A stretch of 64,000 nt of DNA, taken from Streptacidiphilus jiangxiensis (GTDB taxonomy: Bacteria; Actinomycetota; Actinomycetes; Streptomycetales; Streptomycetaceae). A program made the translations under genes and the position numbers. Below, in pieces: positions 1,731-41,155 of the stretch. The DNA is taken from positions 124,001-188,000 of the forward strand of contig NZ_FOAZ01000018.1 in the NCBI RefSeq assembly GCF_900109465.1, read 5' to 3'. Every line of letters starts with the position of its first letter. The first letter of the stretch is position 1. The notes below the pieces were generated by a model. The model saw nothing but the letters and a program-made list of their open reading frames with translations, did not search any database and was not told the DNA's origin.

Positions 1731-1791
1731 ATCGTTCCCGGGTCGTTCCGCTCGTCGGACACAGGTCGTCAACGCAGGTCCTCGACGCCCG

Positions 1792-2619: not shown

Positions 2620-2738
2620 GCGACTCTCCAACGGAACAGGGCGGGCGACGATCCGACCGAAAGATTAGCGGCCTTTTGGCGGTGGCGCGACAAAATCTCT
2701 CTCCGGGCTCGAATCAGAGCGCAAGAATTGCTGCCGGA

Positions 2739-3944: not shown

Positions 3945-4168
3945 CACATGACTCCATTTCAGTTCATTTCCGCGCAGAACCGCGACACCGGTCCAGTCTG
4001 CTGACGCGTCGGCCTGCCGTCTTCGGGACCGGGACGAGCTCGCGCGCCGCGAAAGCCAGACCCAGGTCGGGGTTGGGATCTGGTCAACGGTCGGAAGCGG
4101 ACCTGCCACCGGCTCCCGCAATCTGCTCAAGGAAGCGCAGCAGCACCCGACATGACAGGAACACCGAT
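3945..4168. promoter_or_regulatory. Divergent promoter region between the P450 and A-domain operons
   Basis: These 224 bases separate two divergent operons and must hold both promoters. I find no convincing -35/-10 pair by eye. The plus-strand gene is preceded by ACAGGA 8 bases before a TTG codon. The minus-strand P450 is preceded by TGGAG. No clear long inverted repeat was seen. Confidence 0.5.
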
Positions 4169-5650
4169 TTGTCGAGAGCACTGGCGGCCCCGATCCTCGC
4201 CGACGCCCGGCGCCGTCCCGGAGCCCCCGCCCTGATCTGGTACGGCGCCACCGACTGTGGGCAGCAGACGATCGGCTACGGCGAGTTGGCCGAGCTCGCG
4301 GACCGGGTCGGTCGTGACGTCGAGGCCCGGTACGGCCAGGAGCCGGGCCCGTTGGCCCTGGTCGCCGTCAAGTCCACCCTCTCGATCGCCACCGTCCTGG
4401 CCTGCCTGGCGAACGGCCGGCCCCTGCTGCTCCTCTCCCCCGAGCTGGGCGAGGACACCCGGGCCGCCCTGGTCCTCCGGGCGGGGGCACGGGCCGTGCT
4501 GACGCCGACCGGGACCGAGCTGACCCACGGCCCGCTGCTGCCCCGGGACGAGACCGCCGGGACACCGCCCGCCGACACCGCACTGATCCTGACCACCTCG
4601 GGCTCCACCGGCCTGCCCAAGCTCGTGCCGCTCCCGGCATCGGCGCTGGAGGCCTTCACCGCCTGGGCCGGCGAGGCGTTCACCCTCGACCGCGACACCC
4701 GGGTGCTCAACTACGCGCCGCTCAACTTCGACCTGTGCCTGCTGGACATCTGGGCCACGCTGCGCCACGGCGGCTGCGTGGTGCCGGTCCCCGCCGACCG
4801 GGCCGTGGACGGCGCGTTCCTGGACACGCTCCTGCGGGAGACCAGGCCCCACGTGGTGCAGGCGGTCCCGCTCTTCTTCCGACTGCTGCTGGACGCCGCC
4901 GAAGCGCCGCTGACGGGCGTCCGGGACGTGCTGCTGACCGGCGACCACGTCCCACGCAACGTCCGGGCCCGGCTGCCGGAGCTCTTCCCGCAGGCGCGGC
5001 TGCACAACGTCTACGGCTGCACCGAGACCAACGACTCCATGGTCCACACCTTCGGACCGGACGAGGCCGCCGAGGCCGACGTGCTGCCCCTGGGCCGACC
5101 GCTGCCGGGCGTCTCCGTGCGGCTGCTGGGCCCGGACGGGGAGACTGCGGTCGAGGGGGTCGGGGCCGAGGGGGTCGAGGCCGTCGGCGAACTGGTCGTC
5201 TCGACGCCGTTCCAGACCCACGGCTACCTGGCGGACGACCGGTCCGCGGAGCGCTTCGAGCGCCGGGGCGACCACGTCTGGTACCGCACCGGGGACCTCG
5301 TCCGGCGCGACGCCGACGGGCTGGTCCGGCTGGTGGGCCGCACCGACTTCCAGGTCAAGGTGCGCGGGGTGCGCGTCAACCTGGAGGAGGTCGAACGCGT
5401 ACTGGGCGGCCACGCGGACGTGGCCGAGGCCGCCGTCGTCGCACTGCCGGACGACGAGGCCGGCAAGGTCCTGCACGCGTTCGTACGCCCCGCCGCGGCC
5501 GGCCTGACCGGGCTGGGTCTGCGCACCCACTGTGCCGCCCGACTGAACCGACTGGCCATTCCCGCCAGGTTCCACCTGGTGGACGAGCCCCTGCCGGTCG
5601 GCCCGACCGGCAAGACCGACCGCCGCCGCCTTGAGGAGAGGCTCACATGA
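4169..5650 (+). CDS. Free-standing adenylation domain (AMP-forming amino acid/acid ligase)
   Basis: This protein of about 493 residues activates a carboxylic or amino acid as its adenylate and should load the carrier protein encoded next. It has the ATP loop TTSGSTGLPK, a YGCTETN A5 motif, YRTGDLV (A7), GRTDFQVKVRGVRVNLEEVE (A8) and the catalytic lysine in GPTGKTDRR (A10). There is no C-terminal carrier domain. Pocket residues read by eye are D L L Q L T V D S plus Lys. The DLL opening recalls proline-type domains but the rest does not, so the substrate is not predicted. TTG at 4169, with ACAGGA 8 bases upstream, is the preferred start; the frame is open back to 4073. Its stop overlaps the ACP start (ATGA), which implies coupled translation. 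Confidence 0.85.
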   Translation: MSRALAAPILADARRRPGAPALIWYGATDCGQQTIGYGELAELADRVGRDVEARYGQEPGPLALVAVKSTLSIATVLACLANGRPLLLLSPELGEDTRAALVLRAGARAVLTPTGTELTHGPLLPRDETAGTPPADTALILTTSGSTGLPKLVPLPASALEAFTAWAGEAFTLDRDTRVLNYAPLNFDLCLLDIWATLRHGGCVVPVPADRAVDGAFLDTLLRETRPHVVQAVPLFFRLLLDAAEAPLTGVRDVLLTGDHVPRNVRARLPELFPQARLHNVYGCTETNDSMVHTFGPDEAAEADVLPLGRPLPGVSVRLLGPDGETAVEGVGAEGVEAVGELVVSTPFQTHGYLADDRSAERFERRGDHVWYRTGDLVRRDADGLVRLVGRTDFQVKVRGVRVNLEEVERVLGGHADVAEAAVVALPDDEAGKVLHAFVRPAAAGLTGLGLRTHCAARLNRLAIPARFHLVDEPLPVGPTGKTDRRRLEERLT

Positions 5651-5904
5651 CGCTGCAGCGCGAGATCACCCAGCACATCGTCTCCGAGTACCTGCCGGAC
5701 ACGCCCGCCGAGGAACTGGCGGCGGACTACGACCTGATCGCCACCGGGGTGGTGACCAGCCTTCAGCTGCTCCGCCTGATCGGCTGGCTGGGGGACCGCT
5801 ACGACATCCCGTTCGGCGACCTCGACATCGCGCCCGACGACTTCCGTTCCGTGGCCGCGATCGCGGAGCTGGTCTCCCGGCACCGTCCCGTCGCGGCCAA
5901 CTGA
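5647..5904 (+). CDS. Carrier protein (phosphopantetheine-binding)
   Basis: This 85-residue free-standing carrier is the probable partner of the A domain that overlaps it by 4 bases. The attachment serine is Ser38 in ATGVVTSLQLL, where the usual Asp before Ser is Thr. The flanking helix pattern LLRLIGWLGDRYDI fits the carrier fold. In this operon the loaded substrate could be oxidised by the ACAD-fold enzyme and transferred by the transglutaminase-like protein, a logic known for prolyl-PCP oxidation and for AdmF in andrimid biosynthesis. That assignment is inference from gene order. Confidence 0.85.
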   Translation: MTLQREITQHIVSEYLPDTPAEELAADYDLIATGVVTSLQLLRLIGWLGDRYDIPFGDLDIAPDDFRSVAAIAELVSRHRPVAAN

Positions 5905-5970
5905 ACCGCACACCCACCTGATCGTCCACCCGATCGCCCACCCGCGATCCGAACACCTGGGGGCCACCAC

Positions 5971-6348
5971 ATGTTCGCCCGTGAGAGAGACAAGACCGAG
6001 CCGGTCCACTGGGGCAACGGTCTGAGCTACCGACTGCTCGTCGAGACCGACCAGATGGGCTTCACCGTCTGCCACACCGTGGTCGAGGCGGGCACCAAGT
6101 CCCGTCTGGAGTACCGGCGCCACCTCGAGGCGTGCTACTGCATCAAGGGCTCCGGCCGGGTCGAGGCCGCCGACGGCAGCGCCGTCATCGACGTGGTGCC
6201 GGGCGTGCTGTACGCCCTGGACGAGCACGACGCCCACTTCCTGATCGCCTCGCCCGACGAGGACCTGGAGCTGATCAGCGTGTTCAACCCGCCGCTGCGC
6301 GGCGACGAGCGCCACTCGCTGGACTCCGACGGTTTCTCCCAGTACTGA
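5971..6348 (+). CDS. Ectoine synthase-like cupin (EctC family)
   Basis: This 125-residue cupin aligns well with EctC, which closes a cyclic amidine ring by dehydration of N-acetyl-diaminobutyrate. The three metal ligands described for EctC (Glu57, Tyr85, His93) are matched with identical spacing at Glu53 (HLEACYC), Tyr81 and His89 (YALDEHDAH). The C-terminal VFNPPLRGDE is also typical. No EctA or EctB lies in the window, so the role is not osmolyte synthesis. EctC is known to cyclise glutamine slowly to a five-ring amidine, so a related ring closure on an amino acid or carrier-bound substrate is plausible. It lies 66 bases after the carrier gene and 11 before the ACAD gene. Confidence 0.85.
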   Translation: MFARERDKTEPVHWGNGLSYRLLVETDQMGFTVCHTVVEAGTKSRLEYRRHLEACYCIKGSGRVEAADGSAVIDVVPGVLYALDEHDAHFLIASPDEDLELISVFNPPLRGDERHSLDSDGFSQY

Positions 6349-6359
6349 GGCGGCAGACG

Positions 6360-7520
6360 GTGATTCACTGGACCCCGGAGCAGCAGGAGCTGCGTGCGGC
6401 GATCGGCGCGGTCGCCGCCGAGCTCGGCAAGGACCACCTCGAACGCGACGCGGCCGGCATCTTCGACGAGGAGGGCTGGCGCAGGCTCCGGGACATGGGG
6501 CTGTTCTCCCTGCCGTTCGACCCCGCCCACGGTGGCCTCGGCAAGGATCTGCTGACCACGCTGTACGTGCTCGAGGAGCTCGGGTACCGCTGTCCTGACG
6601 CCGGGTTGGGCTTCTCGGTCTCCACCCACATGGTGAGCACCGGCGTGGCCCTGCAGCGCTTCGGCTCGAAGGCACTCAAGGAGCACTACCTGCCGCAGGT
6701 CTGCGCGGGCACGGTGATCGGCGCCCACGCCATCACCGAGCCCGCCGGCGGCTCGGACGCGATGTCCATGCGGACCACCGCGGTGGCCGACGGCGACGCG
6801 TTCGTACTGAACGGCAGCAAGTCGTTCGTCAGCAACGGGCCCATCGCCGACGTGATCGTCGTCTACGCCCGCACCGGCGCGCCCGGCGAGGTCGGCGGAA
6901 TCACCACCTTCCTGGTGCGCAGCGACACCCCCGGGCTCTCGGTCGGGCGCCCGGTGGCCAAGATGGGGCTGCGCACCTCGCCGCTGGCGGAGCTGTTCCT
7001 CGACGACGTCCGCATCCCGCGGGACCACGTCGTCGGCGGGGTCGGCGCCGGGTTCCTGGTGCTGGACCACGTGATGAAGTGGGAGATCCTCTGCGGCTTC
7101 GCCATCACCGCGGGCGAGATGCGGCGGCGGCTGGAGAGCTGCGTGGAGTACGTCCGGACCCGGACCGCGTTCGGCGCGACCATCGGGGCCAACCAGTCGA
7201 TCGCCAACCGCATCGTCGAGATGCGGATCGACACCGAGAACGCCCACAAGTGGCTCTTCGACACCGCCGAGAAGCTGCAGGCCAAGGCCGACGTCGCCGC
7301 CGACATCGCGATGACCAAGCTCGTCGTGAGCGAGGGCAACGTGCGCTCGGCCCTCTCCGCGGTGCAGATCTTCGGCGGTTACGGCTACACGGCCGAGTAC
7401 GGCGTCGAGAAGCAGTTGCGCGACGCCGTCGGCGGCACGATCTACTCCGGCACCTCGGAGATCCAGCGTCAGCGTCTGGCCTCGCTCATGGGCCTGGACC
7501 GTCCCGTCAAGCGCGCCTAG
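6360..7520 (+). CDS. Acyl-CoA dehydrogenase-fold flavoenzyme
   Basis: The 386-residue protein spans the full ACAD fold. It starts at GTG 6360 with GAGG 9 bases upstream. It shows the FAD/substrate motifs HAITEPAGGSDAMSM and GFAITAGEMRRRLE, and the C-terminal GGYGYTAEYGVEKQLRDA block. The position that holds the catalytic Glu in many ACADs (IYEGTSE) reads IYSGTSE, so the base is missing there. Either a residue elsewhere serves, as in IVD-type enzymes, or the chemistry differs. By context it may oxidise an aminoacyl group on the ACP at 5647, as PltE/RedW-type enzymes do with prolyl-PCP. An acyl-CoA substrate is the alternative. Confidence 0.85.
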   Translation: MIHWTPEQQELRAAIGAVAAELGKDHLERDAAGIFDEEGWRRLRDMGLFSLPFDPAHGGLGKDLLTTLYVLEELGYRCPDAGLGFSVSTHMVSTGVALQRFGSKALKEHYLPQVCAGTVIGAHAITEPAGGSDAMSMRTTAVADGDAFVLNGSKSFVSNGPIADVIVVYARTGAPGEVGGITTFLVRSDTPGLSVGRPVAKMGLRTSPLAELFLDDVRIPRDHVVGGVGAGFLVLDHVMKWEILCGFAITAGEMRRRLESCVEYVRTRTAFGATIGANQSIANRIVEMRIDTENAHKWLFDTAEKLQAKADVAADIAMTKLVVSEGNVRSALSAVQIFGGYGYTAEYGVEKQLRDAVGGTIYSGTSEIQRQRLASLMGLDRPVKRA

Positions 7521-7548
7521 GACCAGCGCACAGAAGATGAGGAGAAGC

Positions 7549-8250
7549 ATGTCAGCCGAGCTCGACGCCCTGCGGGCACCGACCGGGTTCCTCGACCACG
7601 AATCCCCCGCCGTACGGGCCTTCGTCGACAAGGCCCTGGCCAAGGCGGGCCTGACCGACGCGCCCGCCGGCCCCGAGGGGGACATCGCGAAGGCGGTGGC
7701 GCTCTACTACGCCGTCCGCGACGGCATCCCCTACGAGGTGTACGGCGCGGACCTGTCCCACCGGGGGCTGAGCGCGAGCGGGGTGCTGGAGCACGGCCTG
7801 GGCTTCTGCGTCCACAAGTCGATCCTCTACGCCGCCGCGGTCCGGGCGGTGGGCGTCCCGAGCCGGCTGTACTACGGGGACGTCCGCAACCACCTGGCCT
7901 CGCCCCGGCTGCGGGAGCTGGTGGGCGGCGACGTCTTCCGCTTCCACAGCCTGGCCGTGGTCCACCTCGACGGCCGCTGGGTCAAGGCCACCCCGGTCTT
8001 CAACAAGATGCTCTGCAAGCTCTACGGCATCACCCCGCTCGACTTCGACGGCCGTTCGGACAGCCTGTACCACCCGTTCGACTCGGACGGCCGCCGGCAC
8101 ATGGAGTTCCTGCATGTGCACGGCGAGTTCGACGACGTCCCGTACGACCTCGTGGTCGACGGGATCAAGACCGCCCATCCGCGCCTCTTCGCCAGTGCGC
8201 ACACCACCACGTCCGGATCGCTGGTCGCCGAGGCGACCTCGGCCGTCTGA
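7549..8250 (+). CDS. Transglutaminase-like protein, possible amide synthase
   Basis: This protein of about 233 residues has the transglutaminase core: a nucleophile Cys in LGFCVHKSILYAAAVRAVGVPSR and a His in FRFHSLAVVHLDGRWVKATP. The third triad position, normally Asp in WxxxDPT, reads Thr (WVKATPV). Members of this superfamily catalyse amide formation between carrier-bound substrates in andrimid assembly (AdmF). Here, next to a free A domain and ACP, a similar acyl transfer is the best guess. ATG 7549 is preferred over ATG 7537 because GAGGAG lies directly before it. It is followed 15 bases later by the TrpB-like gene, so it belongs to the same operon. Confidence 0.8.
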   Translation: MSAELDALRAPTGFLDHESPAVRAFVDKALAKAGLTDAPAGPEGDIAKAVALYYAVRDGIPYEVYGADLSHRGLSASGVLEHGLGFCVHKSILYAAAVRAVGVPSRLYYGDVRNHLASPRLRELVGGDVFRFHSLAVVHLDGRWVKATPVFNKMLCKLYGITPLDFDGRSDSLYHPFDSDGRRHMEFLHVHGEFDDVPYDLVVDGIKTAHPRLFASAHTTTSGSLVAEATSAV

Positions 8251-8265
8251 CAGGGAAGGACCCCC

Positions 8266-9633
8266 ATGGAGAGGATCCGGTTCTCGCTCAGCGAGAGCGA
8301 AGCCCCGACCACCTGGTACAACATCGCGGCCGATCTGCCGGGCCCGGCGCTCGCGCCGGCGCTCAACCCCGAGACGATGCAGCCGCTGACCCGCGCCGAG
8401 ATGGCGCACACCATGCCCGAGCAGCTGATCGAGCAGGAGCTCAGCACCGAGCGGGAGATCGAGATCCCGGAGGAGGTCCGTCGCATCTACGCGATGTGGC
8501 GGCCCTCCCCGCTGTTCCGCGCCCGCCGCCTGGAGCGCGAGCTCGGTACCCCGGCCCGGATCTACTACAAGTACGAGGGCGGCGCGCCGACCGGCAGCCA
8601 CAAGCCCAACACGGCCATCCCGCAGGCCTACTACAACAAGCTCGCGGGCAAGACCGGTCTGGTCACCGAGACCGGCGCCGGCCAGTGGGGCAGTGCCACC
8701 GCCCTCGCGGCCTCCTTCTTCGAGATGACCGCCAAGGTCTACATGGTCAAGGTCAGCTTCGAGCAGAAGCCGTACCGCCGTGCGCTGATGGAGACCTACG
8801 GCGCGACGTGCGTGCCGAGCCCGAGCAACGAGACCGAGGTCGGCCGCACCATCCTCAAGAACGACCCGGACTGCCCCGGCAGCCTCGGCATCGCCACCTC
8901 GGAGGCGCTGGAGGCGTTCGCGCAGGACCCGTCGCTCGGTTACGTGCTGGGCAGCGCCGCCAACCACGTGCTGCTGCACCAGACGATCATCGGCCAGGAG
9001 GCCCTGCGCCAGATGGAGCTGGCCGAGGACTACCCGGACCTGGTGATCGGGTGCTCCGGCGGCGGCAGCAACCTGGCCGGCCTGACCTTCCCGTTCCTGG
9101 GGGAGCAGCTGCGCGGCGGCCGCCCGGTGCGCGTGATCGCCGTCGAGCCGGCCGCGTGCCCCACCCTGACCCGCGGCACCGTCGCGTACGACTACGCCGA
9201 CACGGGCCGGCTCGGTCCGCTGTTCCGGATGCACACCCTCGGCCACGAGTTCGTGCCGCCGGCCGTGCACGCGGGCGGCCTGCGCGCCCACGGCATCGGT
9301 CCGCTGATCAGCCGCTGCGTGGAGGACGGCCTGATCGAGGCCACCGCCGTCGCGCAGACCGCCTGCTTCGAGGCGGGCGTCCAGTTCGCCCGCAGCGAGG
9401 GCATCGTGCCGGCCCCCGAGTCCACCCACGCCATTCGCGTCGCCATCGACGAGGCGCTGCGCTGCCGCGAGGAGGGCACCTCCAAGGCGATCCTCTTCGG
9501 TCTGTCCGGGCACGGGCACTTCGACCTGGCCGCGTACGACAAGTACTTCGCCGGGACGCTGGCCGACGACAACCCGGACGACGAGCTGCTGGCGCGCGCC
9601 GCCTCCGGCATCCCGCAGGTCGACCAGGCATGA
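8266..9633 (+). CDS. TrpB2-like PLP-dependent beta-synthase
   Basis: This 455-residue enzyme belongs to the tryptophan synthase beta family, long TrpB2 type. It has the PLP lysine Lys113 in GSHKPNTA, the catalytic Glu135 in ETGAGQWG and the phosphate loop GCSGGGSN. No trpA or other trp gene is present. A free-standing role joining serine, or an activated serine, to a nucleophile other than indole is therefore likely, giving a non-protein amino acid. GGAAGGA precedes ATG 8266. Its last codons overlap the following ATP-grasp gene (ATGA), so the two are translationally coupled and probably act in consecutive steps. Confidence 0.88.
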   Translation: MERIRFSLSESEAPTTWYNIAADLPGPALAPALNPETMQPLTRAEMAHTMPEQLIEQELSTEREIEIPEEVRRIYAMWRPSPLFRARRLERELGTPARIYYKYEGGAPTGSHKPNTAIPQAYYNKLAGKTGLVTETGAGQWGSATALAASFFEMTAKVYMVKVSFEQKPYRRALMETYGATCVPSPSNETEVGRTILKNDPDCPGSLGIATSEALEAFAQDPSLGYVLGSAANHVLLHQTIIGQEALRQMELAEDYPDLVIGCSGGGSNLAGLTFPFLGEQLRGGRPVRVIAVEPAACPTLTRGTVAYDYADTGRLGPLFRMHTLGHEFVPPAVHAGGLRAHGIGPLISRCVEDGLIEATAVAQTACFEAGVQFARSEGIVPAPESTHAIRVAIDEALRCREEGTSKAILFGLSGHGHFDLAAYDKYFAGTLADDNPDDELLARAASGIPQVDQA

Positions 9634-10877
9634 CCCCGCCGCTGATCGTCGCGATCGTCGACGCGGACGGCATCGGCGCGCACCTGCCCGCCGCGCTGGC
9701 CCGTCACGGGGCCCGCAGCATCCACGTCAGGTCCGACGCGCCGAACGTCCACTTCTCCCGCCGCCCGGCCGACCTCGACATCGAGGTGGTCCACCGCGGG
9801 GACCTGGTGGAGACCGCCACCGCCCTGCGCGGGCACGGGGTGGGCTTCGTGGTGGCCGGCACGGAGTCCGGGGTGCTGCTCGCCGACGCCCTGTCGGCGC
9901 AGCTCCGCACCCCGGGCAACGGGATGACCCGGCCCGGGGCCCGGCGGGACAAGCACGAGATGGTCCAGGCGGTCGCCGCGGTCGGACTGGCCACCGCCTC
10001 GTCGGTGGTCACCGACTCGCTCGACGAGCTGCTCACCTGGGCAGAGCAGCTGGGGACCTGGCCGGTGGTGCTCAAGCCGCCGGCCAGCGCGGCCAGCGAC
10101 CACGTGCTGTTCTGCCGGTCCGAGGCGGAGCTGCGCTCCGCCTTCGCCGCGGTGCTGGGGGCGGACGATCGCTACGGTCGGCGCAACGGGGCGGTGATCG
10201 GCCAGGAGTTCCTGGCCGGCGAGGAGTACTTCGTCAACACCGTGAGCCGGGGCGGCTCCCACCACGTCGTGGAGGTGTGGCGCTACCAGAAGCGGCTGGT
10301 CGACGGCGGCCGGCCGATGTACGACTACGAGGAGCCGGTGGCCCCGGACGACCCGGCCGTGGCCGTGGTGTCCGCGTACGCCCTCGCCGTGCTCGACGCC
10401 CTGGAGATCCGCAACGGGGCGGCGCACACGGAGGTCATGCTGACGCCGGACGGACCGGTGCTGGTCGAGTCCGCGGCCCGACCCGGCGGCTCGCACGAGC
10501 CGGCGGTCGTCTCCGGCTGCCTCGGCACCGACCAGATCGACTGCCTCGCACGGGCGATCGTCCGGCCCGAGGAGCTGCATGCCGGCCGGCTGCCGCGCTA
10601 CCGGCCGCAGGCCGCGCTGCGCTACGTGACGCTGCTCAGCCCCACCGACGGCCAGATGCCGTCGGAGGAGGGGCTGGCCCCGGTGCGGGAGCTGGAGTCG
10701 TGCCTCGAGGTGGTCCTCGCCGCCGCGCCCGGCTCCCCGGTCAAGCGCACCGTCGACCTGGGCACCTCCCCCGGCTACGTCTACCTGACCGCGGCCACGC
10801 ACGGCGAGGTCGAGGAGGACTACCACCGGCTCCGGCAGCTGGAGGAGTCCGGCCTCTACCGCACCCCGACCCACTGA
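9630..10877 (+). CDS. ATP-grasp carboxylate-amine ligase
   Basis: This 415-residue ATP-grasp protein resembles L-amino acid ligases such as BacD, which form a peptide bond through an acyl phosphate. Visible parts are the nucleotide-binding WPVVLKPPASAASD, the flexible-loop region GQEFLAGEEYFVNTVS and the Mg/ATP-binding stretch HTEVMLTPDGPVLVESAARPGG. It is coupled to the TrpB-like gene by a 4-base overlap. It may join the non-protein amino acid made there to another amino acid or acid. The substrates cannot be deduced from sequence. Confidence 0.85.
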   Translation: MTPPLIVAIVDADGIGAHLPAALARHGARSIHVRSDAPNVHFSRRPADLDIEVVHRGDLVETATALRGHGVGFVVAGTESGVLLADALSAQLRTPGNGMTRPGARRDKHEMVQAVAAVGLATASSVVTDSLDELLTWAEQLGTWPVVLKPPASAASDHVLFCRSEAELRSAFAAVLGADDRYGRRNGAVIGQEFLAGEEYFVNTVSRGGSHHVVEVWRYQKRLVDGGRPMYDYEEPVAPDDPAVAVVSAYALAVLDALEIRNGAAHTEVMLTPDGPVLVESAARPGGSHEPAVVSGCLGTDQIDCLARAIVRPEELHAGRLPRYRPQAALRYVTLLSPTDGQMPSEEGLAPVRELESCLEVVLAAAPGSPVKRTVDLGTSPGYVYLTAATHGEVEEDYHRLRQLEESGLYRTPTH

Positions 10878-10905
10878 ACCAACCGACGTACCCAAGGAGT
10901 TCACC

Positions 10906-11418
10906 ATGACCACGCAGACCGTCGCCAACCTCGACGAGCTGGCCGAGTACCCGGCCGACTGGCAGCACACCGAGAAGCGGATCCACCCGGGCGAGAACCT
11001 GAGCCTGCCGGACGCCTACCTGAAGTGGTACGACATCCGCACCGCCGACCAGGACGCCACCCCCGAGGTCAGCGACGAGGCCCGGGAGTTCCTGCGGACC
11101 GAGGCGGCCGAGGGCCGGGTGGAGTTCCGCAAGGAGTTCGGTCACGTGCTGCTGCACCGCTGCGACGAGAAGTACTTCATGATCGTCTGCGTGTGGCGCA
11201 ACAAGAACGAGATGTGCCAGACGATCTACTACAAGGACGACGCGGGCTTCCTGCCCTACGTCGGCGCCCCGGGCACCCTGCGCGCCACCCAGGAGGTCGT
11301 CGAGCTGGACGCCACCTCCCACGAGCGCCGCGCCTGGTCGCGCTACCTCCTCTCGGACCGCAGCGCCGCCGCCAAGCAGGCCTACATCGACGACGCCTGC
11401 ACGGGTCAGCTCATCTAG
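10906..11418 (+). CDS. Unrecognised 170-residue protein
   Basis: I do not recognise this family. The protein is soluble, with no signal peptide or membrane segment, and is rich in aromatic and charged residues. A central block EFGHVLLHRCDEKYFMIVCVWRN reads as two beta strands with His and Cys. It is followed by CQTIYYKDDAGFLPY and a helical C-terminus. AAGGAG lies 5 bases before ATG 10906. It sits between an ATP-grasp ligase and glutamate mutase in one operon, so it probably acts in the building-block pathway, either as a small enzyme with a barrel-like fold or as a partner protein. Confidence 0.8.
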   Translation: MTTQTVANLDELAEYPADWQHTEKRIHPGENLSLPDAYLKWYDIRTADQDATPEVSDEAREFLRTEAAEGRVEFRKEFGHVLLHRCDEKYFMIVCVWRNKNEMCQTIYYKDDAGFLPYVGAPGTLRATQEVVELDATSHERRAWSRYLLSDRSAAAKQAYIDDACTGQLI

Positions 11419-11463
11419 GCCCGGTCCGCCCTCGCCTCCCGACAGCCCGAGAAAGGAGCGGCC

Positions 11464-11946
11464 GTGATACGACATGTAGTGGAGCCCGACCCGCAGGAGA
11501 CCGACACCGACGCGCGCGTGGTGATCCTGGGGGTTGCGGCCAGCGACGCCCACGCGGTGGCCAACCACCTCATCGCGCACGGCCTGCGCGAGCTCGGCTT
11601 CCACGTGGTGAACCTCGGCACCTGCACGTCGGTCGCCGAGTTCGCCGCCGCCTGCTCCGAGTATCCGCAGGCCGAGGCGGTCCTCGTGGGGAGCCTCAAC
11701 GGGCACATCCACGAGGACCTGCGGGACCTCCCCGCGGCGCGGGCCGCGGGCGAGATCACCTGCCCGGTGATCGTCGGCGGCAACCTCTCCGTGGGCAGCC
11801 ACAAGGACACCTCGGCGCACGAGCGGCTCTACGCGCTCGGGGTCGACCGGATCCTCGGCGACGCCGACGAACTGCCGCGTGTGCTCGATGAGTTGATCGC
11901 CGCCAGGCGCGACGCGGATGCGGACGCGCGCCGCGGTGTCTCGTGA
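11464..11946 (+). CDS. glmS: Glutamate (methylaspartate) mutase, S subunit, B12-binding
   Basis: This 160-residue protein is the cobalamin-binding subunit of glutamate mutase, which converts L-glutamate to (2S,3S)-3-methylaspartate. The B12 signature DxHxxG appears as D28-A-H30-A-V-A33, with His30 the expected lower cobalt ligand. The usual Gly is Ala. A later SLNGH and the VGGNLSVG loop complete the Rossmann-like B12 pocket. It starts at GTG 11464 behind AAAGGAG. Its end overlaps glmE (GTGA), as expected for an obligate complex. In NRPS clusters such as friulimicin's, this enzyme supplies 3-methylaspartate. No methylaspartate ammonia-lyase is nearby, so degradation is unlikely. Confidence 0.92.
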   Translation: MIRHVVEPDPQETDTDARVVILGVAASDAHAVANHLIAHGLRELGFHVVNLGTCTSVAEFAAACSEYPQAEAVLVGSLNGHIHEDLRDLPAARAAGEITCPVIVGGNLSVGSHKDTSAHERLYALGVDRILGDADELPRVLDELIAARRDADADARRGVS

Positions 11947-13331
11947 CGGGCTGGCGTCCGATGGACAGCGACACCCGCCTGCGCGGCAACGCGCTGCCGA
12001 AGCTCGCGGAGTCGGCGGCGTACATCACCTCGCTCGGCAAGCCGACGGCCGCGGAGGTGCTGGACCGGACGCGTGAGCGGGGCCGGGTGGCCATCCAGCC
12101 CCGCTGCGGCGTCGGCGGACACGCCGAGATGCTGCGGCTGCTGCGCACCCTCGAGGCCGAGGCGGCGCCCGACATCCTCACCGTCACCATCGACTCCCAC
12201 ACCCGGCTGCGCCGCTTCCAGCAGGCGCTGCGCGCGCTCAACCAGAACCCCGCGGACCTGAACGGATATCCGCTGGTCACCCATGGTTGGCGGCGCGGCC
12301 GGGAGTTGAACGAGGCGGTGGCGGCCCCCCTGGAGATCCGGCACGGCTCGCCCGACGCCGAGCTGCTGTTCGGGGTCTCGGTGGCGGCGGGCATCACCTC
12401 CTTCGAGGGCGGCGGGATCTCCTACAACCTGCCCTACTCCAAGGACGTGCCGCTGGCCGAGTCGCTGGCGGCCTGGACCACCGTGGACCGGGTCTGCGGC
12501 GAGCTGGCCGAGCTCGGCATCGTGATCGACCGGGAGCTGTTCGGCACGCTCACCGCGGTCCTGGTGCCCCCGTCGATCAGTCTGGCGATCAGCGTCCTGG
12601 AGGCGGTCCTGGCCGCCCGCGCGGGAGTGCGGTGCATCTCCGTCGCCTACCCGCAGGGCGGCCACCTCGCCCAGGACGTGGCCGCGCTGCGCGCGATCCC
12701 GCTGCTGGCCACGCGCTACCTGCCGGCCGGGGTGACCACCCACGCGGTCCTGCACGAGTTCATGGGGGTGTTCCCCCGCCGGCGGGGCGACGCGGAGGAC
12801 CTCATCCTCTACGGCGCCCTCGTCGCGCGTCTCGGCGGCGCCACCAAGATCATCACCAAGACCCACCAGGAGGCGGCCGGCATCCCGGACACCCAGGCCA
12901 ACGTCGAGGGCCTGCGGCTGGCCGACCGCGCCAACTCGCCGCTGCTGGACTTCCTCTCGGTCGACGAGGCCCGGGTCCAGGAGGAGCTCGAGTGGATCCT
13001 CGCCGAGGTCGACGAGATCGTCGGCCCGGTGCTGGACCGCGGTGAGGACCTGGCCGCAGCCGTCGTCGAGGCCTTCGCCGACGGCACGCTGGACATCCCC
13101 TTCAGCGCCAGCCGGCACGCCCGCTCCGAGGTCATCCCCGCGCGCGACAAGCAGGGGGCCATCCGCTATCTCTCCGCCGGCCGGCTGCCGCTCTCACCGC
13201 GTTCCACCGAGCGCCACCGCGAGCTGCTCGGGGACGACGGCTCCGGCCGCGCCGGCATGGGCAGCCTGCTCGCCTCGCTGACCGCGGACGTCAACTACTT
13301 TCCACGGCTGTTCGAGGAGTACCACCGGTGA
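11943..13331 (+). CDS. glmE: Glutamate (methylaspartate) mutase, E subunit
   Basis: This 462-residue protein is the catalytic TIM-barrel subunit that binds glutamate and pairs with GlmS. Typical stretches are QPRCGVGGHAEMLRLLRTLE, TVTIDSHTRL, GYPLVTHGWRRGRELNE and GISYNLPYSKDVPLAES. Length is slightly below the ~480 of clostridial GlmE but the fold is complete. It starts at GTG overlapping the glmS stop and ends in GTGA overlap with the MFS gene, so glmS, glmE and the exporter are translated as one coupled unit. Confidence 0.93.
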   Translation: MTGWRPMDSDTRLRGNALPKLAESAAYITSLGKPTAAEVLDRTRERGRVAIQPRCGVGGHAEMLRLLRTLEAEAAPDILTVTIDSHTRLRRFQQALRALNQNPADLNGYPLVTHGWRRGRELNEAVAAPLEIRHGSPDAELLFGVSVAAGITSFEGGGISYNLPYSKDVPLAESLAAWTTVDRVCGELAELGIVIDRELFGTLTAVLVPPSISLAISVLEAVLAARAGVRCISVAYPQGGHLAQDVAALRAIPLLATRYLPAGVTTHAVLHEFMGVFPRRRGDAEDLILYGALVARLGGATKIITKTHQEAAGIPDTQANVEGLRLADRANSPLLDFLSVDEARVQEELEWILAEVDEIVGPVLDRGEDLAAAVVEAFADGTLDIPFSASRHARSEVIPARDKQGAIRYLSAGRLPLSPRSTERHRELLGDDGSGRAGMGSLLASLTADVNYFPRLFEEYHR

Positions 13332-14629
13332 CCGCCCTGTCGACCGCGCTGCACACCCGGTGGCAGCGCTCCGTGATCCGCCGCTCGCCGCAGCTGACGA
13401 CCCTGACGCTGAGCTCGATCTTCTCGGAGACCGCCTCGCAGTTCGTCGGCGTGGCCCTGATCTGGGTCGTGCTGGTCACCACCCACTCCCCGGCCGACGC
13501 CGGCCTCGTGGTGCTCTGCCGCAGGATTCCCGAGATCATCTCCGGCCCGCTGCTCGGGCCGTGGTTCGACCGCTACGCGCCCGTGCCGCTCACCGCGCTG
13601 GGCTACCTGGTCCGGGGCGGCACGGTGGCCGCCATCGCGGTCCTGTCCGCCGTCCACCTGCTCAGTCTGCCCCTGCTGCTGGTGCTGTGCCTCTTCATGG
13701 GCATCACCAACCCGTTGGCGTCCGTGGGCAGTCGGGTCCTCATCCCGCGGATCGTCTCCACCGAGGACCGCCAGGTGGCCAACGGTGTGCTGAGCATCAG
13801 CGACCAGTTCCCCTACCTGGTCGGCCCCGCCATGGGTGGGGCGATGGCGGGCTTCGCGGGCACCTGGGCGCTGCTCGTGCCGGCCGGGATGTGCCTGGTG
13901 GCGCTGCTGCTGCTGATCCCGCTGCGGGCGGCGGGGGTCCGCGAGACGCCCAGCGGCGCCGACTCCACGCCGCCGCCGTCCGGCCGGTCCTCCTGGTTCG
14001 GCTTCAAGCCGATGGTGACGACGCCCGTGGTCCGCGCCATGATGCTGCTGACCATCCTCTACTACATCTCCTACGGACCGCTGCTGACGGCCATTCCGGT
14101 CTTCGCGAGCACCAACCTGCACAGCGGCGGCGCCGGCTACGGCGCCATGTGGTCCGCAATGGGCCTGGGCGCACTGGGCGGTCTGGTGTCGATCCCGCGG
14201 CTGGCCAAGCGGCGCCCCGCGGTGGTCAACTCGGTCGGCGCGGCTCTGTGGGGCGTGGCGCTGCTCCCGCTGGTGGTGATCCACTCCCTGCCGGCCGCCC
14301 TCGTGGTCATGTTCGTCGGCGGCCTCGTCTGGGCGCCCTACGCCTCGACGGAGATCGGCGTCATCCAGCACTCCGTCCCCGAGGACCAGCACGGCGCCGT
14401 CTTCGGCGCGCGGCGCTCGGTCATCGTCTCCTCCTCCCCCACCGGCGCGGCCCTCGGTGGCGTCCTGCTGGAGCACATGACCGCGGTCCACGTGATCGGG
14501 CTGTCCGCCGTGTCCTGCGTGGCCGGCGGTCTGATCTGCCTGGCCCTGCCCTCCGTGCGCAAGACTCCCCCGCTGAACCCGGCCCCGGACGCCGCCCCGG
14601 CGGAGGAGCCGGCGACCGTGGCCGACTGA
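13328..14629 (+). CDS. MFS transporter
   Basis: This 433-residue integral membrane protein has about 12 hydrophobic helices and the MFS-3 style drug-exporter organisation, with RRIPEIISGPLLGPWFDRY in the first cytoplasmic loop region. It is coupled to glmE by a GTGA overlap. It is the only transporter of the building-block operon and may export product or intermediate. Substrate and direction cannot be read from sequence. Confidence 0.85.
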   Translation: MTALSTALHTRWQRSVIRRSPQLTTLTLSSIFSETASQFVGVALIWVVLVTTHSPADAGLVVLCRRIPEIISGPLLGPWFDRYAPVPLTALGYLVRGGTVAAIAVLSAVHLLSLPLLLVLCLFMGITNPLASVGSRVLIPRIVSTEDRQVANGVLSISDQFPYLVGPAMGGAMAGFAGTWALLVPAGMCLVALLLLIPLRAAGVRETPSGADSTPPPSGRSSWFGFKPMVTTPVVRAMMLLTILYYISYGPLLTAIPVFASTNLHSGGAGYGAMWSAMGLGALGGLVSIPRLAKRRPAVVNSVGAALWGVALLPLVVIHSLPAALVVMFVGGLVWAPYASTEIGVIQHSVPEDQHGAVFGARRSVIVSSSPTGAALGGVLLEHMTAVHVIGLSAVSCVAGGLICLALPSVRKTPPLNPAPDAAPAEEPATVAD

Positions 14630-14660
14630 CCCTGCCCACCCCTCGAGAGAGACCCGAGCC

Positions 14661-15914
14661 ATGACCTCCACGCAGACCTCCACCCAGCGCCTGCTGCTCG
14701 TCGGCGGCTCCACCGGCCATCTGCGCAAGGCCCACGCCACCGGCGCGCAGGTCGTCTGGTGTCAGCAGCCCGCCGACATCCGGCCCGAGCACGCCGAACT
14801 CGCCGCTGAGATCATCCCGGTGGACTACACCGACTGGGAGCAGCTGCGCCCCGCCGTGCTGCGGGCGCACGAGCAGGCGCCCTTCGCGGCGGCGGTGTCG
14901 CTGACCGAGCCCGGCCTGGACCCGGTGGCCCTGGTCAACGACCTGCTGGGCCTGGGCGGTACGAGCTACGAGGTGAGCCACCTGTTCACCGACAAGTGGC
15001 TGATGCGGGAGCGACTGCGCGAGGCCGCCGCCACCGACGGCTCCATCGTGGTGGCCGCGGCGCTGCTCGGCGACCGGGACAGCCTGGACGCGTTCGGTAC
15101 GGCCCACGGCTACCCGTTCATCGTCAAGCCGACCAGCGGCACGGCCAGCTTCGGCGTGATGAAGGTCAACAGCCCCGCGGAGCTGGACGCGACCTGGCAG
15201 GAGGTCAGCCGGCTGCGCGACTCCGACCACCCGCTCATCGGCGACTACGACATCGACGCGTTCATCATGGAGGAGTTCGTCGAGGGGACGCTCTGCAGCG
15301 CCGAGACGTTCAGCTGCGACGGCCACCACGTGGTGATGTCCATCACCGAGGGGATCACCGACGAGCGCAACCACGTCCAGGCCGGCCACGTCGCCCCGGC
15401 CCGGATCACCCCCGAACAGGAGGCCGCCGTCCACCGCATGGCGTGCGACTTCCTCGACGCCGTGGGGCTGCGCAACGGGCCGACGCACACCGAGTTCATG
15501 ATGAGCCCGCGCGGACCGGTGATCATCGAGTCGCAGAACCGGGTGGGCGGCGGCCTCATCGGCAAGCTGGCCGAGGTGGTCTACGGGACGGATCCGCAGC
15601 TGCTGGCCCTCACCTGGGCACTGCGTCAGGTACCGTCGCTGACCGAACGGGCGGCCGGCAACGGTGCGGCGGCGAGCTGGATCATCGAGGCCGAACCTGG
15701 CCGGATCCAGGAGATCCGCGGGCTCGACGAGGTCCACGCGCTCCCCTCCACCGCGGCCGTGGACCTCTGGGTCGGGCCGGGCGACGTCGTCCGCCCGTTC
15801 AAGGGCCAGTGGGACGGGCTCGGCCACGTTGCCGTCCGGGCGGAGAACGCCGACGAGGCGATCCGGGTCTGCCGGAAGACGCTGGGTCTGCTGCAGATCG
15901 TCACCGAGGGCTGA
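14661..15914 (+). CDS. ATP-grasp ligase, second copy
   Basis: This 417-residue ATP-grasp protein is distinct from the one at 9630. It has YPFIVKPTSGTASFGVMKV (nucleotide binding), IMEEFVEGTLCSAETFS and HTEFMMSPRGPVIIESQNRVGGG (metal and ATP ligands). It is the last gene of the plus-strand operon and ends before a strong hairpin shared with the convergent regulator gene. Two separate ATP-grasp ligases in one operon suggest two amide or carboxyl-activation steps. Acceptors are unknown. Confidence 0.85.
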   Translation: MTSTQTSTQRLLLVGGSTGHLRKAHATGAQVVWCQQPADIRPEHAELAAEIIPVDYTDWEQLRPAVLRAHEQAPFAAAVSLTEPGLDPVALVNDLLGLGGTSYEVSHLFTDKWLMRERLREAAATDGSIVVAAALLGDRDSLDAFGTAHGYPFIVKPTSGTASFGVMKVNSPAELDATWQEVSRLRDSDHPLIGDYDIDAFIMEEFVEGTLCSAETFSCDGHHVVMSITEGITDERNHVQAGHVAPARITPEQEAAVHRMACDFLDAVGLRNGPTHTEFMMSPRGPVIIESQNRVGGGLIGKLAEVVYGTDPQLLALTWALRQVPSLTERAAGNGAAASWIIEAEPGRIQEIRGLDEVHALPSTAAVDLWVGPGDVVRPFKGQWDGLGHVAVRAENADEAIRVCRKTLGLLQIVTEG

Positions 15915-15930: not shown

Positions 15931-15956
15931 GGGGCCCGCCGGAATCAGCGGGCCCC
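15931..15956. terminator. Convergent hairpin terminator
   Basis: A perfect 9-base-pair GC stem GGGGCCCGC / GCGGGCCCC (15931-15939 and 15948-15956) encloses an 8-base loop. The loop contains the stop codon of the minus-strand regulator, and the stem begins 17 bases after the stop of the ATP-grasp gene. There is no U-run, which is common for actinomycete terminators. It probably ends both converging transcripts. Confidence 0.7.
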
Positions 15957-16673
15957 GAGCAGGTAGTTGTCGCGCGCGTAGACGATCGCCTGGGTACGGT
16001 TCCGCACACCCAACTTGCGGAGCAGGTTGGAGACATGGAACTTCACGGTCTTCTCGCTGAGCACGAGCGACTGGGCCACCTCCTGGTTGGACATCCCGGT
16101 GGCGATGAGTTCGAAGATCTCATGCTCCCTGGCCGTCAGCCCGGACATCTGGTCCGGGCCCGGCTGGACCGGCAGATGAACGCCCATCAGGTCGACCAGC
16201 TTGCGGGCGAGCGGCGGTGGGACCACGGCGTGGCCCTGCGCCACCGCCCGAACCGCGGCGGCCACGTCGTCGAGCGCGCCGTCGTTGGGCACCAGTGCGT
16301 CAGCGCCGGCCCGCAGATAGGACAGCGCGTCGTCGGTCGCGGTGGACTCCGCGAGGATGACCACGCCGACGCGGTCGCGCCGACCGCCACCCACCCGTTC
16401 CTCACGGACCCGGCGGACCACCGCGAGCGTGTCCCAGGCGGGGTCGGCGTCGTCGATCAGTACGGTCTGGCACTCCCGCGCCGACAGGGCGTGGTCCAGC
16501 TGGTAGGCCGTCGTCGCCTCCGCGACCTCCCCGATGTCCGGACAGCCGGCCAGCGCGGTGCGCAGGGCGGCGCGGATCAGTGGACGGCTGGCCAGGATGA
16601 CCACGCCGATGCGAATGTGGTCACGCTCAGTCATCGAATCAAGCGAATAGGACGGGGACTTCTGTGCAAGCAC
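15945..16673 (-). CDS. Atypical NarL/LuxR-family response regulator
   Basis: The 242-residue protein has an N-terminal receiver-like domain (about 20-150) and a C-terminal LuxR helix-turn-helix, seen in LTAREHEIFELIATGMSNQEVAQSL and SEKTVKFHVSNLLRKLGVRNR. The receiver is degenerate. The acidic pair that binds Mg is absent (VVILASRPL), and the conserved Lys of the signalling loop reads Asn (ALVPND). An Asp remains in VLIDDADP. Control by phosphorylation is therefore doubtful. GTG 16673 has AAGGG 6 bases upstream; ATG 16634 is the alternative but lacks a ribosome site. No sensor kinase is adjacent. As the only regulator in the window it is the likely pathway activator. Confidence 0.88.
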   Translation of the reverse strand: MLAQKSPSYSLDSMTERDHIRIGVVILASRPLIRAALRTALAGCPDIGEVAEATTAYQLDHALSARECQTVLIDDADPAWDTLAVVRRVREERVGGGRRDRVGVVILAESTATDDALSYLRAGADALVPNDGALDDVAAAVRAVAQGHAVVPPPLARKLVDLMGVHLPVQPGPDQMSGLTAREHEIFELIATGMSNQEVAQSLVLSEKTVKFHVSNLLRKLGVRNRTQAIVYARDNYLLGAR

Positions 16674-40408: not shown

Positions 40409-41104
40409 TCAGTACCAGCCCTGGAGCGCCGTCTTGAAGCCGTCGAAGTCCTCGTTGTGGACGACGTGGCCGGTGTCGGGCACGGTGCGCACCTCGAACC
40501 CGAGGGCACGCAGTTCCTCGGCCCGCTGCGGCGGGATGTTGTGGCTCGGGTCGGCGAGGACCAGCAGCGACGGCTCGGCCGGCTTGTCCGGGGTGAGGCC
40601 GGCGAACCCGTCGAACGACTCCAGGGTGGTGTCGTCCCAGTGGGCGAGCGAGGTGAGCTTGTTCTGCTGGGCCTGCGCCTCCCAGCGGGGCAGCACCTGC
40701 TGGATCCGCTCCAGGTCCCAGTCCTTCTGCGAGCGCAGGGCCGCGGCCATGGCGCCGCCGTCCGGAGGCGCCGCCGCCCAGGCCGGGTCGACGTAGACGG
40801 CCTTCCCGGGCTGCAGCCGGTCCACGACCTGGGCCAGCAGCAGCGCACCGAGGGAGTGGCCGACGGCCAGCGCGGGGCGCGCGGGAACCGCCTCGGCCAC
40901 CGCGTCCGCCATGGCCTGCAGGGTGTAGGAGTCCCACCGCTCGCTCAGTCCGTGACCGGGCAGGTCGGGGGCCAGCACCCGGTAGCCCTGGCTCGCGAGC
41001 TCCGGACCGGTACGCCACCAACTGGACGAGTCGGCCGTGATCCCGTGCACCAGGACCGCCACGCGATCCCCACTGCCCCACTCCTCCACGTGCAACCGCG
41101 ACAC
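40409..41104 (-). CDS. Alpha/beta hydrolase
   Basis: The protein has about 231 residues and a classical Ser nucleophile in VGHSLGA, an oxyanion motif VLVHGIT and a C-terminal His in DTGHVVHN. GTG 41104 is chosen because AAAGGAG lies 9 bases upstream. The frame is open to GTG 41152, but that start has no ribosome site. It follows the amidotransferase gene by 51 bases in the same operon. Function could be editing thioesterase, esterase or tailoring hydrolase. Confidence 0.8.
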   Translation of the reverse strand: MSRLHVEEWGSGDRVAVLVHGITADSSSWWRTGPELASQGYRVLAPDLPGHGLSERWDSYTLQAMADAVAEAVPARPALAVGHSLGALLLAQVVDRLQPGKAVYVDPAWAAAPPDGGAMAAALRSQKDWDLERIQQVLPRWEAQAQQNKLTSLAHWDDTTLESFDGFAGLTPDKPAEPSLLVLADPSHNIPPQRAEELRALGFEVRTVPDTGHVVHNEDFDGFKTALQGWY

Positions 41105-41155
41105 CGCAGCGTTCTCCTTTGCTTCTCTTACGAATGATTGACGGTTCGTCACTTG

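Follow-up and report, generated by a model that had tools for sequence, protein, structure and literature searches.

Showdomycin is a product of the sdm genes of Streptomyces showdoensis. As outlined in PMC8724604, the cyclase SdmE turns L-glutamine into 2-amino-1-pyrroline-5-carboxylate, which SdmC activates and SdmD carries; oxidation and hydrolysis follow, and then the C-glycosynthase SdmA, the phosphatase SdmB, and a nonenzymatic finish. Here we describe an operon of 12 genes from Streptacidiphilus jiangxiensis (assembly GCF_900109465.1; 9.5 Mb in 93 contigs). It lies within a stretch of 64,000 nucleotides, which we call the window (contig NZ_FOAZ01000018.1, positions 124,001 to 188,000), and it occupies positions 4169-15914 of the window. 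Its best interpretation is as a branch of the showdomycin-type aminopyrrole family that forms peptides, with a proposed coupling step by a tryptophan-synthase-like enzyme (TrpB2). Specifically, we think it probable that its genes encode the synthesis of an amino acid with an aminopyrrole group, which is then ligated into a short peptide. The genes, in order, are:

4169..5650, + strand: A, a stand-alone adenylating enzyme with the putative function of SdmC (PF00501, PF13193; TTG start taken from an alignment of homologs)
5647..5904, + strand: ACP, a carrier protein with the putative function of SdmD (PF00550, 22.5 bits; cut-off 20.8)
5971..6348, + strand: an EctC-like cyclase of the Ectoine_synth/cupin type with the putative function of SdmE (PF06339, 113.3 bits)
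6360..7520, + strand: ACAD, an acyl-CoA-dehydrogenase-like flavin dehydrogenase whose putative substrate is a carrier-bound ring
7537..8250, + strand: a transglutaminase-like (TG-like) cysteine enzyme that we propose takes the acyl group off the carrier, by release or by transfer (PF01841, Transglut_core, 55.2 bits)
8266..9633, + strand: TrpB2, a pyridoxal-phosphate-dependent beta-substitution enzyme (NF009057, 680.6 bits, cut-off 366; TIGR01415, 598 bits, cut-off 518.85)
9630..10877, + strand: ATP-grasp ligase 1, DdaF-like (PRK07206, 331.1 bits; cut-off 302)
10906..11418, + strand: U170, a protein of 170 amino acids, characteristic of the TrpB2-type (class IV) loci and without a match in Pfam or NCBIfam
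11464..11946, + strand: GlmS, the B12-binding subunit of glutamate mutase (PF02310, 34.6 bits; cut-off 32.1)
11943..13331, + strand: GlmE, the epsilon subunit of glutamate mutase, MutE-type (PF06368, 415.2 bits; cut-off 26.6)
13328..14629, + strand: a predicted MFS exporter (PF07690, 109.8 bits)
14661..15914, + strand: ATP-grasp ligase 2 (PF13535, PF18603; LAL_C2)

A preliminary description, made from the letters alone, had placed all of these genes on one strand, as we also find, and had many of them overlapping by 4 bases. Such overlaps occur at four of the 11 junctions (A/ACP, TrpB2/ATP-grasp 1, GlmS/GlmE, and GlmE/MFS), while the other seven have gaps of 8-66 bp with the starts as first set. 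The smallest of these gaps becomes 11 bp if ACAD begins at the GTG at 6360, which is the probable start, instead of at the ACG at 6357, which was used in most comparisons. The gene families that had been named were borne out by profile matches for 11 of the 12 genes; U170 matches no family at E ≤ 0.01. No RNA family reached its gathering score in the 64-kb window.

Genes 1-5 together provide a set of an adenylating enzyme, a carrier, a cyclase, an oxidase, and a release enzyme, with the roles of the EctC-like and TG-like proteins being our prediction. In the preliminary description, ring closure and carrier-bound oxidation were separate activities. Instead, A, ACP, EctC-like, ACAD, and often TG-like proteins form a single recurrent cassette. 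Among 120 relatives of the EctC-like protein, those of the cluster type (46-77% identity) came from 12 genomes besides the host, and the others were mostly 31-39% identical. Most of those 12 loci encode A, ACP, EctC-like, and ACAD together, often with the TG-like protein and without U170. The cassette lies beside a pseudouridine-5'-phosphate-glycosidase/IndA-type protein, a HAD phosphatase, and an MFS protein in three loci (L055-L057), beside an arylmalonate-decarboxylase/EutA-like protein, a DsbA-like protein, and SMR pumps in two (L059 and L060), and beside TrpD-, TrpA-, and TrpCF-like proteins in two more (L061 and L062). A plasmid locus of Burkholderia stagnalis (L205) is annotated in the order AMP-binding, ACP, ectoine synthase, acyl-CoA dehydrogenase, transglutaminase-like, pseudouridine-5'-phosphate glycosidase, HAD, MFS.

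We then took a census of 394 genomes sampled from the host's family, seeded with EctC (cluster type at E ≤ 1e-25). Cluster-type EctC was found in 58 of these genomes, at 64 places including the window. All 63 other places were examined with about 8-10 kb on each side, or less at contig ends. ACP and ACAD were present in 59 of the 63, and A as well in 57; in 55, all three are on the strand of EctC and within 5 kb of it. The TG-like gene was found in 35 of the 63 places: in all of classes I, II, and IV, in 6 of 30 places in class III, and in 1 of 5 others. Including the window, these classes comprise 30 places for class III (TrpD, TrpA, and TrpCF), 19 for class II, 6 for class IV (TrpB2 and U170), 4 for class I (PsuG and HAD), and 5 others. 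The classes are defined by these companions, so that TrpD in 30/30 class III places and U170 in every class IV place are true by definition. For class IV we also used named loci, which gave 17 rows; because L007/L137, L009/L134, and L011/L053 are the same contigs, these represent 14 distinct genomes. Family scans were run on one locus per cluster type, and the remaining loci were matched by BLAST.

Class II and class III are both orphan types. Class II (19 of the 64 places) has the arylmalonate-decarboxylase/EutA-like protein, with a DsbA-like protein in 11 and SMR pumps in 18 (L054, L059, L060, L141-L143, L145, L152, L153, L156, L160, L165, L167, L168, L172-L175, and L177); it is also found on a Vibrio plasmid (L204). 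The class III loci of the survey are L061, L062, L140, L144, L147-L151, L154, L155, L157-L159, L161-L164, L166, L169-L171, L176, and L179-L185, and named ones are on S. clavuligerus pCLA1 (L206) and on a plasmid of S. xanthii (L209). In L062, the TrpA-like protein is over its NCBIfam cut-off, while the TrpD- and TrpCF-like proteins are under theirs, which suggests that these two may have changed substrates. Class III may build a fused bicyclic indole analogue; TrpB2 is present in 3 of the 30 class III places, where the product could possibly be a tryptophan analogue.

The EctC-like protein aligns to the ectoine synthases 5onn and 5ono and keeps Glu, Tyr, and His at the matching positions, which we take to be metal-binding. 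In a phylogenetic tree, 78 cassette-type proteins are split from 15 other EctC proteins with support of 100/100 (124 columns, with many inner forks unresolved; the 15 were called ordinary by identity alone). So, the EctC-like protein does not group with ordinary ectoine synthases, yet it is over the cut-off of the broad PRK13290 model (NF009806; 131.4 bits, cut-off 128). The host genome has no second EctC match. Each of classes I, II, III, and IV needs 2-4 changes on this tree, which implies that cassettes were exchanged between cluster types or were converted.

The best match of A in the Protein Data Bank (PDB) is the peptide synthetase LgrA (8xjz), followed by the L-prolyl-carrier ligase 6o6e. 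Its pocket code is DLLQLTVDS. In an alignment of 71 cassette proteins, nearly all of the pockets read DLLQ(hydrophobic)(T, once S)(V/I/L)DS, whatever the class: 7/7 in class I, 17/18 in class II (one is gapped), 27/28 in class III (one has DVLQ), and 1 other. In class IV, 13 of the 17 rows have DLLQ and 4 have DLFQ. The class I pockets, which accompany the PsuG-type glycosidase, read DLLQ(L/V/I)T(V/L)DS, and the pocket of the window fits this pattern. The cassette pocket resembles DLLYLALVCK, which we take to be the code for proline, but differs from it at four positions, and is more polar at each; this suggests a pocket that would suit a cyclic amidine. The best PDB matches of ACAD are the prolyl-ACP dehydrogenases 4irn and 6cxt and the prolyl-peptidyl carrier protein dehydrogenase 5zw0, and it is under the NCBIfam equivalog cut-offs for PigA (352.3 vs. 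500 bits) and RedW (335.3 vs. 650 bits). In the TG-like family, the Cys (in FCVHK) and the His (in FR-F/Y-H) are invariant in all 12 aligned proteins.

TrpB2 is the sole protein of the host over the TIGR01415 cut-off, and another TrpB-family protein is encoded elsewhere in the genome. In a tree of 31 rows, the 17 TrpB2 proteins of class IV and the 3 of class III form one clade (100/97), apart from 11 others, which are from genomes without cluster-type EctC in the census, and some of which have long branches. This clade ties TrpB2 to the ring of the cassette, instead of to a separate building block. TrpB2 is also the best conserved protein of the operon in most class IV loci (76-88% identity), but not in L010 or L011 (68-69%). 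At a Nonomuraea locus (L208), the cassette is accompanied by a TrpB2 (67%); no U170 was detected there. TrpB2 thus meets the cassette in at least two settings, one of which is beside TrpD/A/CF-like enzymes. Given the 30 places with TrpD-, TrpA-, and TrpCF-like genes, feeding the ring of the cassette into the chemistry of the tryptophan pathway appears to be recurrent. The simplest reading is that the nucleophile for TrpB2 would be the cassette's ring, or a bicycle built from it.

U170 had 49 related proteins, including itself, in a first search. Its AlphaFold2 model has a pLDDT of 90.9 and no confident fold match in the PDB, and no homolog was found on plasmids at E ≤ 1e-5. When the contigs of named genomes were scanned with the U170 alignment, we obtained 15 loci, which contain U170 by construction. 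Eleven of these (L005-L015, from Streptomyces, Kitasatospora, Streptantibioticus, Amycolatopsis, and Pseudonocardiaceae) hold A, ACP, EctC-like, ACAD, TG-like, and TrpB2, so the operon is not a chance assembly; in L013 the core genes are divided over two strands. In three others (L016-L018), U170 is the sole operon gene with a match, and L019, from S. samsunensis, is a remnant of the operon, with pieces of A, ATP-grasp 1, U170, and GlmS. The co-occurrence that had been proposed as a check is seen for EctC-like, TrpB2, and U170 (11 of 15 loci), and GlmE is in 5 of those 11. In the census, 8 of the 394 genomes had strong matches to U170 (E ≤ 1e-40), and 6 of these are about 2.5-6.2 kb from a cluster-type EctC. 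The core of class IV is A-ACP-EctC-ACAD-TG-TrpB2-U170, and the ligases and glutamate mutase are add-ons.

More widely, the U170 superfamily has over 1500 proteins at E ≤ 0.001, and none of the 120 that were listed has a Pfam domain. Members outside the cassette occur in Streptomyces, Anaerolineae, and Ktedonobacteria. Five weak relatives that we examined (from among L086-L107) share the motif (H/F)ER(D/E)AWV.

The add-ons vary. ATP-grasp 1 is in 9 of the 11 core loci (not in L010 or L011) and ATP-grasp 2 is in 5 (L005, L007, L008, L013, and L014; the contig of L006 ends before it). GlmE is present in L005, L006 (partial, at the contig's end), L007, L008, and L014, and a close homolog of the MFS protein is present in one core locus (L013). 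Both ligases are under the cut-offs for DdaF and BacD; ATP-grasp 1 scores 215.9 bits with the DdaF model, against a cut-off of 840. For GlmE, the only PDB relatives at E ≤ 0.001 are the glutamate mutases 6h9e and 1cb7 (residues 23-430 in the alignment to 6h9e). Within the stretches examined, L010 and L011/L053 have no ATP-grasp (L010 has an EamA exporter), while L009/L134, L012, L015, and L135 have ATP-grasp 1 with a BBE-type FAD oxidase and an EamA exporter, and the window, L005, L007/L137, L008, L014, and L136 have two ATP-grasps with GlmSE. We read the number of ATP-grasps (0, 1, or 2) as a series of amino acid, dipeptide, and tripeptide. As an aside, a second and more diverged MutE-family protein (TIGR01503, 141 bits) is encoded some 8-12 kb beyond the window's left end (L003:7731-11801). 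Its gene adjoins those for a 502-aa protein without a Pfam or NCBIfam family and for an ATP-grasp protein, and asparagine-synthetase-A-like and alkanesulfonate-monooxygenase-like genes are nearby.

Together, these genes suggest the following pathway. The EctC-like protein would cyclize L-glutamine to 2-amino-1-pyrroline-5-carboxylate, A would load this cyclic amidine onto ACP, ACAD would aromatize it to 2-aminopyrrole-5-carboxyl-ACP, and the TG-like enzyme would release the aminopyrrole from the carrier. TrpB2 would take the electron-rich aminopyrrole in place of indole and join its C3 to the aminoacrylate formed from L-serine, giving beta-(aminopyrrolyl)-L-alanine. (The ring of showdomycin is C-glycosylated; an attack of the ring on the aminoacrylate of TrpB2 would follow the same logic.) U170 would perform or assist some step on beta-(aminopyrrolyl)-L-alanine. 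GlmSE would convert glutamate to 3-methylaspartate, the two ATP-grasps would form the amide bonds, linking the new amino acid to it, and the MFS protein would export the peptide. Autoxidation of the aminopyrrole to a maleimide may create a reactive group, in parallel with what we presume for the maleimide of showdomycin. The first four steps are predicted from the functions that the operon has in common with the published showdomycin pathway, with the assignment of genes to steps being our own; the TrpB2, GlmSE, and ATP-grasp steps are predicted from enzyme class and conserved linkage. Much of the preliminary description of a building-block operon is retained in this scheme: the supply by GlmSE, the beta-substitution by TrpB2, the carrier-bound oxidation, and the ligation by ATP-grasps.

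Several observations weigh against this pathway. The likeness to sdm is in described functions, not in sequences, and in the portion of PMC8724604 that we rely on, SdmE is called a "cyclase" and not EctC-like. The TG-like gene is missing from 24 of the 30 class III places, which means that the cassette can do without it, and the product of this gene could pass the acyl group to an amine instead of hydrolyzing it. Class IV is not a single clade in the EctC tree (it needs 3 changes), with L013 placed with class III. The nucleophile of TrpB2 is one that we infer. Two of the eight strong U170 matches (L187 and L188) have no cluster-type EctC nearby, although L187 has an A-like match; and no U170 was detected at the Nonomuraea locus or at the three class III loci with TrpB2, so TrpB2 and the cassette can occur together without U170. 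GlmE, at 367 bits, is under the TIGR01503 cut-off of 390.1; strictly, it should be called GlmE-like. Many class IV loci lack GlmSE and ATP-grasp 2, and L013 has two ATP-grasps without GlmSE. Because GlmSE is so often absent, 3-methylaspartate would not be part of the core product.

Could the operon instead hold unconnected blocks, with the EctC-like protein making an ectoine-like ring from a diaminobutyrate derivative, A/ACP/ACAD oxidizing proline to pyrrole, and TrpB2 supplying a third unit? The best relatives of ACAD are prolyl-carrier dehydrogenases, and an L-prolyl ligase is among the better PDB matches of A, as this would predict. But EctC-like, A, ACP, and ACAD are together in 57 of the 63 places, including beside showdomycin functions; the EctC-like clade is apart from other EctC; and the pocket of A, which is nearly constant across the cassette family, departs from the presumed proline code. 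We consider unconnected blocks to be highly improbable. Still more improbable, in our view, is that TrpB2 is a self-resistance tryptophan synthase that salvages indole while the product poisons tryptophan synthesis. Its strong conservation in most class IV loci is what a housekeeping-type copy would show, and the genome does have the other TrpB-family protein. But the operon lacks TrpA, the cassette-linked TrpB2 proteins are a clade of their own, and the class III cassette comes with TrpD/A/CF-like proteins, of which TrpD and TrpCF are below their cut-offs in L062.

The remaining alternatives involve the genes on either side of the operon, on the other strand:

1..1832, - strand: a PabAB-like aminodeoxychorismate/anthranilate-type synthase (PF00117, PF00425; the open reading frame runs about 483 bases left of the window)
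1792..2631, - strand: an additional, Sul-type dihydropteroate synthase (DHPS), with 308 bits to Sul3 vs. 172 for the best ordinary DHPS in the PDB
2739..4181, - strand: a cytochrome P450, divergent from the operon (PF00067; its start is uncertain, as the reading frame overlaps the start of A and the NCBIfam match begins at residue 103)
15945..16673, - strand: a LuxR-type regulator that closes the operon (PF00196; 63-65% identical homologs in L005 and L014)

Among solved structures, the DHPS is most similar to Sul3 (308 bits), Sul2 (276 bits), and Sul1 (253 bits), although it is under the NCBIfam cut-off for Sul3 (310.5 vs. 475 bits) and those for Sul. Where the host's housekeeping copy reads GF--AKTRED in the p-aminobenzoic acid (PABA) region, it reads GYFLGSNPETS, a two-residue insertion. 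The insertion is found in all 4 cluster DHPS homologs and in none of the 4 others that were aligned. In Sul enzymes, according to the parts of PMC10328974 that we draw on, a Phe-Gly sequence at this site discriminates against sulfonamides. The plasmid-borne Sul1-3 of that study are the closest solved relatives of the window's DHPS, which shares their two-residue insertion; unlike them, it is on a chromosomal contig beside a biosynthetic operon, and it has GYF where the Sul chains have GFF. DHPS homologs lie beside A in S. griseofuscus (L005/L075), L006, and L014, and 59% identical homologs of PabAB adjoin them, so that the pair is beside A in the window, S. griseofuscus, S. murinus, and S. hygroscopicus. 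In the 394 genomes, with at most 6 candidates scored per genome, the host alone had a DHPS this close (E ≤ 1e-50). In the databases, the DHPS has 4347 relatives at E ≤ 1e-60, not sorted by Sul type; the best 120 are 63-100% identical, often carry the name "type 2", and seldom come from Streptomyces. We had considered the insertion as strong proof of self-resistance, but we lowered this given how common close relatives are. Separately, a class I locus (L146) has a PabAB-like gene at its left edge (3-1184, - strand; 49% over 412 amino acids, cut by the locus edge), and that genome has no DHPS of the window's type.

These neighbors raise the possibility that the TG-like enzyme or the ATP-grasps acylate an amine, either that of 3-methylaspartate or that of an amino acid made by TrpB2, with the aminopyrrole-carbonyl group, and that the aminopyrrole carboxylate is not the nucleophile of TrpB2. 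The amide would mimic p-aminobenzoyl-glutamate or a sulfonamide and would be an antifolate, and the Sul-type DHPS and PabAB would protect the producer. We view this as possible but unlikely. The DHPS with its insertion and PabAB do adjoin A in the window and three relatives, a PabAB-like gene lies beside one showdomycin-type cassette (that of L146), and 2-aminopyrrole-5-carboxylate would be shaped like PABA. Also, of the 10 class IV genomes checked, just the three with the Sul-type gene had over two DHPS matches (4 in the window's genome, 3 each for L005 and L014, and 2 in each of the other seven). However, within the stretches examined, the DHPS/PabAB pair is present in just 4 of the 14 distinct class IV genomes and could serve a neighboring pathway; because Sul-type DHPS seems frequent in databases, the operon's product need not be what the insertion arose for; and a fourth DHPS-like protein of the host, encoded on the same contig about 2.4 kb beyond the window's right end (G000:C52:190382-191194), lacks the insertion. 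A more specific form, in which ATP-grasps ligate the PABA-mimicking aminopyrrole to 3-methylaspartate as a glutamate mimic, so that the product imitates p-aminobenzoyl-glutamate and the Sul-type DHPS and extra PabAB protect the producer, we judge quite unlikely. If an antifolate is made, nature would have its own equivalent of the synthetic sulfonamides, complete with a resistance gene in the producer's cluster, and Sul-type DHPS enzymes would have a natural setting. The operon might also be one arm of a larger cluster. The other members would be P450, PabAB, DHPS, and two proteins encoded 25-30 kb downstream, one hydroxyamidotransferase-like and the other a methylideneimidazolone (MIO)-type aminomutase/lyase, and the final product would be a hydroxamate formed from an acid that derives from PABA or tyrosine. 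The hydroxyamidotransferase-like protein (about 41.2-43.4 kb) has as its best PDB match the hydroxyamidotransferase 7ylz (454 bits), and the aromatic amino acid lyase/mutase (about 44.4-46.1 kb) best matches a tyrosine aminomutase; a hydroxyamidotransferase of the TsnB9 type is described in PMC13418202 as putting a hydroxamate on benzoic acid. In S. griseofuscus, homologs of the lyase (77%), the hydroxyamidotransferase-like protein (69%), the alpha/beta hydrolase (62%), and the P450 (80%) flank the operon on one side. But in the window, the lyase, hydroxyamidotransferase-like, and hydrolase genes sit far from the operon in a nonribosomal peptide synthetase (NRPS)/polyketide synthase region, and neither a lyase nor a hydroxyamidotransferase-like match was found in L007, L008, L013, L014, L136, or L137 within the stretches examined. 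We judge the larger cluster very unlikely. The P450 on its own was rejected as a core member of the operon because, among the loci compared, its homolog (78-80%; L076) is only in S. griseofuscus. The alpha/beta hydrolase, hydroxyamidotransferase-like, and tyrosine-aminomutase-like genes together span 40409-46072 on the - strand.

If the operon indeed makes and ligates an aminopyrrole-bearing amino acid, then TrpB2 would be a natural catalyst for non-indole heterocycles. The presence of the cyclase type in 58 of the 394 sampled genomes of the family suggests that the ring-making enzymes of showdomycin are a general module; the cassette is found with at least four downstream gene sets. We know of no product for the cassette types other than the showdomycin type. 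For these dozens of orphan clusters, there is now a specific candidate substrate, glutamine, and a candidate first intermediate. Related operons appear to be common and chemically unexplored.

How does the operon compare to known systems? The preliminary description knew of no characterized pathway with this combination. As a whole the gene combination is not described in the open-access literature that we found (coverage was partial, which makes this absence weak evidence), but half of it has a close characterized relative in showdomycin. With glutamate mutase and a pyrrole together, we considered an origin like that of the 3-methylpyrrole of coumermycin, but the comparison of cassettes pointed elsewhere. 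Clusters for the lipopeptide friulimicin and the macrolactam vicenistatin supply 3-methylaspartate, and they have the glutamate mutase gene pair in common with the window, whose operon lacks NRPS condensation domains. The dapdiamide and bacilysin pathways use ATP-grasp L-amino-acid ligases of the DdaF/LAL_C2 kind to form dipeptides, as we propose here, but the building blocks differ. The pyrrole-forming sets (presumably those of Red, Plt, Pig, Bmp, and anatoxin, acting on carrier-bound proline) share the stand-alone A, the carrier, and an ACAD-type flavoenzyme, and they include the best PDB relatives of ACAD. Compared to them, the window has an additional EctC-like cyclase, a polar A pocket, and an ACAD below the PigA and RedW cut-offs. 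The class III clusters, such as those of S. xanthii and S. clavuligerus, share the A-ACP-EctC-ACAD block, and the three with TrpB2 have it from the window's clade; unlike the window, they have anthranilate-phosphoribosyltransferase-like, isomerase/indole-3-glycerol-phosphate-synthase-like, and TrpA-like enzymes, no U170, and mostly no TG-like protein. The showdomycin pathway shares the functions of a cyclase, a stand-alone A, a carrier, oxidation, and hydrolysis, as far as these are set out in PMC8724604. A block with these predicted functions adjoins PsuG and HAD genes in L055-L057, L205, and others. The 12 genes of the window's operon gave no match to PF04227 or to any HAD family at E ≤ 0.01, and in place of the C-glycosynthase and phosphatase, the ring genes are accompanied by TrpB2, U170, two ATP-grasps, GlmSE, and an MFS protein.

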